Shown here one piece after another: positions 57,801-62,998 of a stretch of DNA of 64,000 nucleotides; positions within the stretch are counted from its first letter, which is position 1, and every line of letters begins with the position of its first letter. Origin of the DNA: Rhea pennata (lineage: Eukaryota; Chordata; Aves; Rheiformes; Rheidae); contig NC_084668.1 in the NCBI RefSeq assembly GCF_028389875.1, positions 34,034,085 to 34,098,084 of the forward strand, read 5' to 3'. Position numbers and translations under genes: made by a program. The notes under the pieces were generated by a model that was not told the DNA's origin, did not search any database, and worked only from the letters and a program-made list of their open reading frames with translations.

Positions 57801-60800
57801 ATAAAATATGAAGAATTGAAACCAAAAGGGGTAGAGGAAAAAATAATAAAGAAGGGGGCGGGGGGGGAAGGGAAATAAAGAAGGGGGCGGGGGGGGAAGG
57901 GAAATAAAGAAGGGGCGGGGGGGGAAGGGAAATAAAGACGGGGGCGGGGAAATAAAGACGGGGGCGGGGAAATAAAGACGGGGGGGGGGAAATAAAGACG
58001 GGGGGGGGGAAATAAAGACGGGGGGGGGGGAAATAAAGACGGGGGGGGGGAAATAAAGACGGGGGGGGGGAAAATAAAGACGGGGGGGGGAAAATAAAGA
58101 CGGGGGGGGGAAATAAAGACGGGGGGGGGAAATAAAGACGGGGGGGGGAAATAAAGACGGGGGGGGGAAATAAAGACGGGGGGGGGAAATAAAGACGGGG
58201 GGGGGAAATAAAGACGGGGGGGGAAATAAAGACGGGGGGGGGGGAAATAAAGACGGGGGGGGGGGAAATAAAGAAGGGGGGGGGGAAATAAAGAAAGGGG
58301 GGGGAAATAAAGAAAGGGGGGGGAAATAAAGAAAGGGGGGGGGGAAATAAAGAAAGGGGGGGGGAAATAAAGAAGGGGGGGGGAAATAAAGAAGGGGGGG
58401 GGAAATAAAGAAGGGGGGGGGGAAATAAAGAAGGGGGGGGGGAAATAAAGAAGGGGGGGGGGAAATAAAGAAGGGGGGGGGAAATAAAGAAGGGGGGGGG
58501 AAATAAGAAGGGGGGGGGAAATAAAGAAGGGGGGGGGAAATAAAGAAAGGGGGGGGGAAATAAAGAAAGGGGGGGGAAATAAAGAAGGGGGGGGGAAATA
58601 AAGAAGGGGGGGGGAAATAAAGAAGGGGGGGGGGAAATAAAGAAGGGGGGGGGGAAATAAAGAAGGGGGGGGGGGAAATAAAGAAGGGGGGGGGGAAATA
58701 AAGAAGGGGGGGGGAAATAAAGAAGGGGGGGGGAAATAAAGAAGGGGGGGGGGAAATAAAGAAGGGGGGGGGGGAAATAAAGAAGGGGGGGGGGAAATAA
58801 AGAAGGGGGGGGGGAAATAAAGAAGGGGGGGGGGAAATAAAGAAGGGGGGGGGGAAATAAAGAAGGGGGGGGGGAAATAAAGAAGGGGGGGGGGAAATAA
58901 AGAAGGGGGGGGGGAAATAAAGAAGGGGGGGGGAAATAAAGAAGGGGGGGGGGAAATAAAGAAGGGGGGGGGGAAATAAAGAAGGGGGGGGGGAAATAAA
59001 GAAGGGGGGGGGGAAATAAAGAAGGGGGGGGGGAAATAAAGAAGGGGGGGGGGGAAATAAAGAAGGGGGGGGGGAAATAAAGAAGGGGGGGGGGAAATAA
59101 AGAAGGGGGGGGGGAAATAAAGAAGGGGGGGGGGAAATAAAGAAGGGGGGGGGGAAATAAAGAAGGGGGGGGGGGAAATAAAGAAGGGGGGGGGGAAATA
59201 AAGAAGGGGGGGGGGAAATAAAGAAGGGGGGGGGGAAATAAAGAAGGGGGGGGGAAATAAAGAAGGGGGGGGGGAAATAAAGAAGGGGGGGGGGAAATAA
59301 AGAAGGGGGGGGGGAAATAAAGAAGGGGGGGGGAAATAAAGAAGGGGGGGGGAAAGAAGGGGGGGGGGAAATAAAGAAGGGGGGGGGGAAATAAGAAGGG
59401 GGGGGGGAAATAAAGAAGGGGGGGGGGAAATAAAGAAGGGGGGGGGGAAATAAAGAAGGGGGGGGGGAAATAAAGAAGGGGGGGGAAATAAGAAGGGGGG
59501 GGGGAAATAAAGAAGGGGGGGGGAAATAAAGAAGGGGGGGGGAAATAAAGAAGGGGGGGGGGAAATAAAGAAGGGGGGGGGGGAAATAAAGAAGGGGGGG
59601 GGGAAATAAAGAAGGGGGGGGGGAAATAAAGAAGGGGGGGGGGAAATAAAGAAGGGGGGGGGGAAATAAAGAAGGGGGGGGGGAAATAAAGAAGGGGGGG
59701 GGGAAATAAAGAAGGGGGGGGGGAAATAAAGAAGGGGGGGGGAAATAAAGAAGGGGGGGGGGAAATAAAGAAGGGGGGGGGGAAATAAAGAAGGGGGGGG
59801 GGAAATAAAGAAGGGGGGGGGGAAATAAAGAAGGGGGGGGGGAATAAAGAAGGGGGGGGGGGAAATAAAGAAGGGGGGGGGGAAATAAAGAAGGGGGGGG
59901 GAAATAAAGAAGGGGGGGGGGAAATAAAGAAGGGGGGGGGAAATAAAGAAGGGGGGGGGGAAATAAAGAAGGGGGGGGGGAAATAAAGAAGGGGGGGGGG
60001 AAATAAAGAAGGGGGGGGGAAATAAAGAAGGGGGGGGGAAATAAAGAAGGGGGGGGGGAAATAAAGAAGGGGGGGGGGAATTAAAGAAGGGGGGGGGAAA
60101 TAAAGAAGGGGGGGGGAAATAAAGAAGGGGGGGGGAAATAAAGAAGGGGGGGGGAAATAAAGAAGGGGGGGGGGAAATAAAGAAGGGGGGGGGGAAATAA
60201 AGAAGGGGGGGGGAAATAAAGAAGGGGGGGGGAAATAAAGAAGGGGGGGGGGAAATAAAGAGGGGGGGGGGAAATAAAGAAGGGGGGGGAAATAATGAAG
60301 GGGGGGGGAAATAAAGAAGGGGGGGGGAAATAAAGAAGGGGGGGGGAAATAAAGAAGGGGGGGGGGAAATAAAGAAGGGGGGGGGAATTAAGAAGGGGGG
60401 GGGGAATAAAGAAGGGGGGGGGAAATAAAGAAGGGGGGGGGGAAATAAGAAGGGGGGGGGAAATAAAGAAGGGGGGGGGAATTAAGAAGGGGGGGGGAAT
60501 TAAGAAGGGGGGGGAAATAAGAAGGGGGGGGGAAATAAAGAAGGGGGGGGGAAATAAAGAAGGGGGGGGGAAATAAAGAAGGGGGGGGAAATAAAGAAGG
60601 GGGGGGGAAATAAAGAAGGGGGGGGGAAATAAAGAAGGGGGGGGGAAATAAAGAAGGGGGGGGGAAATAAAGAAGGGGGGGGGAAATAAGAAGGGGGGGG
60701 GAATAAAGAAGGGGGGGGGAAATAAAGAAGGGGGGGGGAAATAAAGAAGGGGGGGGGAAATAAAGAAGGGGGGGGGAAATAAAGAAGGGGGGGGGAAATA

Positions 60801-62998: not shown

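Follow-up and report, generated by a model that had tools for sequence, protein, structure and literature searches.

How does an intron come to consist for the most part of regularly spaced guanine runs, does such an array do anything, and how much of its assembled sequence can be read as biology? These questions are posed by a locus in Rhea pennata, as contained within what is described here as the window, that is, the whole 64,000-nucleotide stretch of DNA that was analysed.

The array and its unit

The array is real, long, and regular, and it is found in one intron. It can be described as follows:

57841..62204, plus strand: minisatellite of G-runs (229 units); consensus is linker AAATAAAGAA followed by G8-11 (TRF, unit splitting)

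TRF reports a tandem array at 57927-62204, with a period of 19, 224.3 copies, and 93% matches, along with a separate 29-bp block at 57845-57949, on the array's left side. Splitting instead on G-runs of at least 5 gives 229 units, among which 138 possess the linker AAATAAAGAA and 224 have G-runs that are 8 to 11 long. Minisatellites are tandem arrays with units of about 10-60 bp, and the array, with its period and its number of tandem copies, is one. Same-strand G-runs of at least 7 number 225 in the array versus 3 in the remainder of the 64-kb window, and the array's purine content is 93.3%, with one T per unit. A preliminary description of this DNA, i.e., as containing a G-run array of about 4.4 kb and roughly 230 units, with G tracts 7 to 11 long on a strand that is nearly pure purine, thus was accurate.

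The array is 54.9% GC versus 33.7% and 29.8% in the intron's other parts. A multi-unit higher-order repeat was sought in the array and not seen, with lags 1 and 2 leading and no longer lag prominent. Nor do the lengths of G-runs and linkers compensate for each other within the array, their correlation being weakly positive (0.16). Over the 64-kb window, TRF found no further array longer than about 60 bp.

Gene and intron setting

The array is bounded by the following features:

56834..56914, minus strand: downstream exon (reading frame and splice sites; presumptively named)
56915..62818, minus strand: Hyccin-gene intron, 5904 bp, exon edges with GT and AG
62819..62998, minus strand: upstream Hyccin exon (Pfam Hyccin, E 4.8e-30, over a slightly longer stretch)

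The upstream exon matches as well FAM126A/Hyccin chains in PDB (E about 3e-25), and three further stretches at lower coordinates match Hyccin in Pfam. Two other exon candidates, picked by eye, had no Hyccin match in the Pfam scan. The plus strand carries NIF3-family exons between 2.5 and 7.2 kb (Pfam), and from synteny with NIF3L1 the gene is presumably HYCC2 rather than HYCC1. The array makes up 4364 of the intron's 5904 bp, i.e., 74%, and its distances to donor and acceptor are 614 and 926 bp, respectively. Since the gene's orientation is minus, transcription reads the G-rich plus strand as its template and yields a C-rich RNA. The minus-strand Hyccin exons thus bear out what had been proposed of this setting, that is, an intronic array, a gene on the opposite strand, a G-rich template, and a C-rich transcript.

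Little else was detected in the way of encoded products. Rfam at gathering scores yielded 0 matches in the window, and a tRNA scan of the window found 0. Frames that are free of stops, the longest among those listed running to 907 codons from stop to stop, exist on the array's C-rich strand, but were rejected as a gene since the unit rarely spells a stop and the frames lie inside of an intron. At 57708-62291, on the minus strand, these are proline-, phenylalanine-, and leucine-rich pseudo-protein frames, ones that ab initio gene prediction might report as a gene. At 22502-22879, on the plus strand, there are frame pieces which presumably resemble the terminal part of a CR1 reverse transcriptase, and these had no Pfam match at E 0.001.

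A second assembled version beyond the window

The assembly possesses not one version of the array but two. A run of 13 N occupies window coordinates 64001-64013, starting one base past the window's end, and behind that gap the array restarts, at window coordinates 64014-68358. It is followed there by a second copy of the right flank:

62203..64000: right flank, repeated at window coordinates 68357-70154 behind the 13-N gap; most likely a false duplication

Among the matches listed (60) from a whole-genome search, all are on C6, the contig of the window, as two blocks that are offset by 6136 bp. The two right-flank copies, with the second at C6:34102441-34104238, differ by 0 substitutions and by 6 one-base indels over 1798 bp. 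The Hyccin exon is repeated exactly, at window coordinates 68972-69151, and unique sequence resumes after the second flank copy. Array lengths in the two versions agree (4328 and 4345 bp), with the two copies, array included, 95.1% alike over 6250 aligned columns.

As described in the BiSCoT paper, the Bionano scaffolder separates by 13 N those contigs which have a region in common, thereby duplicating that region (PMC7649008). Given that habit, the 13-N gap in combination with a flank free of substitutions implies that this most likely is one locus assembled twice, that is, the overlap of two contigs which were not merged. A true tandem duplication, i.e., of a 6.1-kb segment carrying both array and exon, would also place in an assembly two copies as alike as these. 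It would not, however, be expected to have its junction exactly at a 13-N gap, nor flank copies with 0 substitutions, these together being the mark of an unmerged overlap, and true duplication is therefore very hard to credit.

If one locus has been assembled twice, then 0 substitutions in 1.8 kb suggests that the two versions are perhaps of one haplotype. Alternatively, the versions may be two near-identical alleles instead of one sequence read twice, since regions duplicated in this manner usually are allelic duplications according to the same BiSCoT paper (PMC7649008). That paper also describes short polishing reads as tending to align to one duplicate only (PMC7649008). The false duplication across the 13-N gap is probable, and a gene annotation with a doubled Hyccin exon is possible.

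Order within the array

What a second version provides is a means of distinguishing what recurs from what does not. Five zones can be recognized, as counted from the left:

57781..57844, plus strand: purine-rich left flank holding AAATAAAGA and GGGG; proposed seed (from sequence, putative)
57845..57989, plus strand: left edge of 29-bp units with C-interrupted G-runs; proposed oldest forms (TRF, unit splitting; recurs in second version)
57990..58265, plus strand: 14 contiguous units ending GAC (unit splitting; same order in second version, with 2 linker differences)
58266..60279, plus strand: the array's most regular part, with GAAA-unit blocks of 4 and of 2 (unit splitting, version comparison)
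60280..62204, plus strand: right part, with 56/104 irregular units; errors of the consensus most likely account for its T-rich linkers (unit and version comparison)

The left flank is 78% purine, a value which is reached by 0.55% of 64-bp stretches to the left of the array. The order on the left is the same in both versions, that is, C-interrupted edge units, then the GAC block, and then the GAAA blocks, with 19 identical irregular units common to the two versions, also in the same order, over 117 left-part unit pairs. In the left part of the window version, identical irregular units are neighbours 15 times versus 1.5 in shuffles (0/5000), and in the window version too the lengths of neighbouring G-runs are correlated (lag-1 0.28; 0/2000 shuffles). 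Contiguous blocks of variants such as these are a pattern which serial tandem duplication produces.

Lengths of G-runs match exactly between versions for 61/117 left and 48/104 right unit pairs, and are within 1 for 111/117 and 95/104, respectively. As run lengths do differ between versions, individual run lengths are unreliable.

Right-hand units: noise or biology

In the right part, as seen in the window version, identical irregular neighbours occur instead at chance level (3 vs 3.7 in shuffles). The substitutions there are nearly all of one kind, with 42 of 43 being A to T, and 66 deleted bases are found alongside. The right-hand G-runs, by comparison, have 0 interruptions in 937 bases, with 41 expected at the linker rate. 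Such a pattern could be viewed as a record of quadruplex folding, one in which the T-rich units are real, the adenines of loops mutate, and the guanines of tetrads are protected, and abasic sites at loop adenines are described as compatible with G4 folding (PMC4267657). That view is nevertheless extremely improbable, as the T-rich units are missing from the second version: Extra-T linkers are found in 26/104 right-part units in the window version versus 1/109 in the second (p 2e-8), and 1 of the 26 is present in both versions at paired units. The changes, moreover, bunch within units (6 units with at least 3 vs 0.9 expected), and substitutions are accompanied by deletions (p 1e-4). The idea that A-to-T mutations confined to loops are a ‘fossil’ of G4 folding consequently was rejected, since the pattern, though conspicuous in the window version, is all but missing from the second.

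Since the second version is without nearly all of the T-rich units, those to the right of about 60.28 kb most likely are noise at a contig end, i.e., consensus errors. Part of the right-hand variation may be real, or instead a shared systematic error, as irregular right units both coincide between versions above chance (26/56 vs 10/48, p 0.007, with the alignment of units between versions itself favouring agreement) and are clustered along the array (36 adjacent pairs vs 29.6 in shuffles; 59/5000). Eight right-hand irregular units are identical in the two versions, each of them a linker minus one A. Widespread nanopore miscalls have been reported at telomere repeats (PMC9414165), which would make systematic repeat errors plausible at the HYCC2 array as well, if its assembly is of that platform.

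That the array might be an artefact of assembly had been raised in advance as a means by which its description could fail. Artefact in fact would seem to explain why there is a second copy and why the right half has T-rich units, but it does not explain away the array itself. Neither the second assembled copy nor the noise that sequencing likely introduced into the right half had been foreseen.

Distribution in the genome

The unit, by exact pattern, is private to a single locus. That is, a 26-base unit pattern has 284 plus-strand and 0 minus-strand matches in the 1.269-Gb assembly, and all 284 are at the HYCC2 locus, with 136 in the first version and 148 in the second; a search of this type covers identical copies, and diverged relatives may escape it. 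The exact unit being found at no other place in the assembly, the array is not a case of a dispersed satellite, which is an alternative that had been entertained for it. Searches of prokaryote and of viral collections returned 0 exact matches each to the 26-base pattern.

Looser patterns reach further. When three G8 runs are sought with a wide pattern, the assembly gives 1705 matches in the forward and 2054 in the reverse direction, many of which, among the matches listed, are plain poly-G. A narrower pattern, i.e., of G8 with A-bounded linkers, gives a complete list of 96 places, 53 of them at the HYCC2 locus (17 in one version, 36 in the other) and 43 at six other loci, where linkers are unlike AAATAAAGAA. 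As a control, the reversed pattern is identical to the query for symmetric patterns and is hence uninformative. The other loci with G8 arrays are the following:

C1:118.93 Mb
C2:1.92 Mb
C2:40.77 Mb
C3:3.67 Mb
C4:52.71 Mb
C6:37.16 Mb

With six such loci possessing other A-bounded linkers, G-run arrays seem to arise locally and repeatedly in this genome. The unit is private to its locus, that is, yet the kind of repeat recurs. As for individual loci, a G-run array at C2:1924062-1924900 has linkers of the AGAGAGA type and a period of about 15-17 bp, and it spans about 0.84 kb among the matches listed. Smaller G8 arrays are present at C4:52710065-52710306 and C6:37156479-37156614, on the minus strand, with AGAG and AAAAAA linkers.

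Quadruplex, triplex, and RNA-strand potential

The array's mean G4Hunter score is 2.01, and 25-nt windows scoring at least 1.5 amount to 94% in the array versus 0.4% outside of it. With a G4 motif taken to be four G-tracts of at least 3 and loops of up to 12 nt, 59 non-overlapping motifs (loops 1-12 nt) are predicted for the array. With canonical loops of 1-7 nt there are instead 6 predicted motifs in 4364 bp, that is, canonical motifs are not continuous along the array. As linkers are about 10 nt, it is mainly long-loop motifs which fit. ViennaRNA, run with RNA parameters and with its G4 option switched on, assigns -65.7 kcal/mol to 100 nt of the G strand, and to the C-rich strand 0.0. The predicted quadruplex potential of the array thus is strong but would be dependent on long loops. 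The ‘strings’ of quadruplexes previously envisaged are in this sense a weaker prediction than was stated, amounting to 59 motifs with loops of 1-12 nt and only 6 with loops of 1-7 nt.

Triplex potential, also previously suggested, appears from mirror symmetry to be limited. The best perfect mirror arms are 14 nt with a 6-nt spacer, as found over 400 bp (59001-59400), and mirror identity is 85% at 20 nt without a spacer (58901-60100), with a single T in each unit.

On the RNA strand each unit reads C8-11 and then UUCUUUAUUU. No AG is found anywhere on that strand in the array's 4.4 kb, there are 225 C-runs of at least 7, and overlapping motif matches number 163 for YUCUYY and 199 for YYUCUY, versus 298 and 328, respectively, in the other 59.6 kb. 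These properties, together with the G4Hunter score and the 225 G-runs of at least 7, are what might be expected were the array a functional cis element, one in which RNA polymerase is slowed by quadruplexes of its template or a C-rich RNA recruits proteins, and the expression or splicing of HYCC2 thereby is tuned. The unit, however, is private to one locus, and any repeat of such composition would give the same motif counts; a cis element is accordingly quite improbable.

That the intron RNA might serve as a multivalent protein platform, by way of poly-C and PTB-like sites, is similarly a suggestion from motifs, and a very improbable one. If the intron were long-lived, then it could hold PTB-like and poly-C-binding proteins and so tune how HYCC2, or other genes, are spliced. 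PNCTR, for comparison, is described as having 2,178 YUCUYY/YYUCUY motifs versus the 163 + 199 overlapping matches of the array, and as a nuclear noncoding RNA for which PTBP1 binding has been shown (PMC6224606), whereas the array is part of an intron that is expected to be degraded and whose protein binding would be putative.

Origin, and comparison with known systems

The reading that is preferred here, with a probability of about 0.8, is that of a single-locus intronic minisatellite whose growth, within an intron of a Hyccin-family gene (HYCC2), started locally from a purine-rich seed. This reading draws on the private unit, on the block-wise variants on the left, and on the identical flank behind the 13-N gap. 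The seed would be the purine-rich left flank, with its AAATAAAGA and GGGG. Growth would then have occurred via slippage or template switching, as aided by the quadruplex-forming G-runs. The resulting array presumably is transcribed as a C-rich stretch, is then spliced out, and otherwise would be passive, i.e., lacking in specific function. The array, that is, probably is without function. A derivation of the array from a neighbouring exon was considered as well and rejected, the longest k-mers in common with the two flanking exons being 10 and 8.

Overlapping with growth in place is avian sequence stuttering, that is, unstable, length-variable introns, perhaps driven by GC-rich, structure-forming DNA, and which would make of the array a case of a known process. 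Among the possible drivers of stuttering, Hron et al. (2026) list meiotic conversion and a replication stress that arises where DNA is GC-rich or structured, and G4s are also on their list (PMC12954441). Like stuttering introns the array is a local repeat expansion in an intron, it is G4-capable, and the intron is repetitive, and 36 of 236 exon-stuttering introns are reported to be on macrochromosomes (PMC12954441). On dot chromosomes there are 190 of the 236, and stuttering introns as described there are mainly in GC-rich settings, are many per gene, and have longer, irregular units, some of them exon-derived (PMC12954441). At HYCC2 there is instead one regular array in an AT-rich intron, the remainder of which is 30-34% GC, on a scaffold of 44.5 Mb that is no dot chromosome. 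The unit furthermore has no exon copy (longest k-mer in common with flanking exons 10), and TRF found in the 64 kb no second array above about 60 bp. Stuttering thus is an unlikely though not a negligible explanation. Given the absence of a dot-chromosome, GC-rich setting, the array is not filed here under stuttering, with length variation being a putative trait in this case.

Other intronic repeats share some of these features. The G4-rich intronic repeats of avian leptin and TNF-alpha, as described by Beauclair et al. (2019), also have G-tracts and are hard to sequence and assemble, but those genes are GC-rich throughout, whereas at HYCC2 it is only the array that is GC-rich (PMC6792250). 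The AAGGG expansion of RFC1 resembles the HYCC2 array in being an intronic, purine-rich, G-tract repeat, and both quadruplex and triplex formation have been shown for short RFC1 AAGGG repeats (PMC10563062). The RFC1 unit, however, is of 5 bp with G3, and is polymorphic and disease-linked in people (PMC10563062), versus a 19-bp unit with G8-11 for the HYCC2 array, which is not known to have any effect. The loops and G-tracts of promoter G4s are reported to differ in allele frequency (PMC10257653).

Significance

The array was correctly described at the outset, and in part over-interpreted. The most useful outcome of following up on that description is the probable false duplication, along with the noise that is thereby exposed. 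There are two warnings in this. An array at a contig break can cause a false duplication, and one which doubles a coding exon. Base patterns in an array also may mimic biology while probably being consensus noise.

The locus otherwise is a clean natural case for the start and the growth of G-run minisatellites, that is, a private locus with a plausible purine-rich seed. Adding to its value for studies of such growth are the ordered variant blocks on the array's left and the smaller arrays, with other linkers, which are found elsewhere in the genome.
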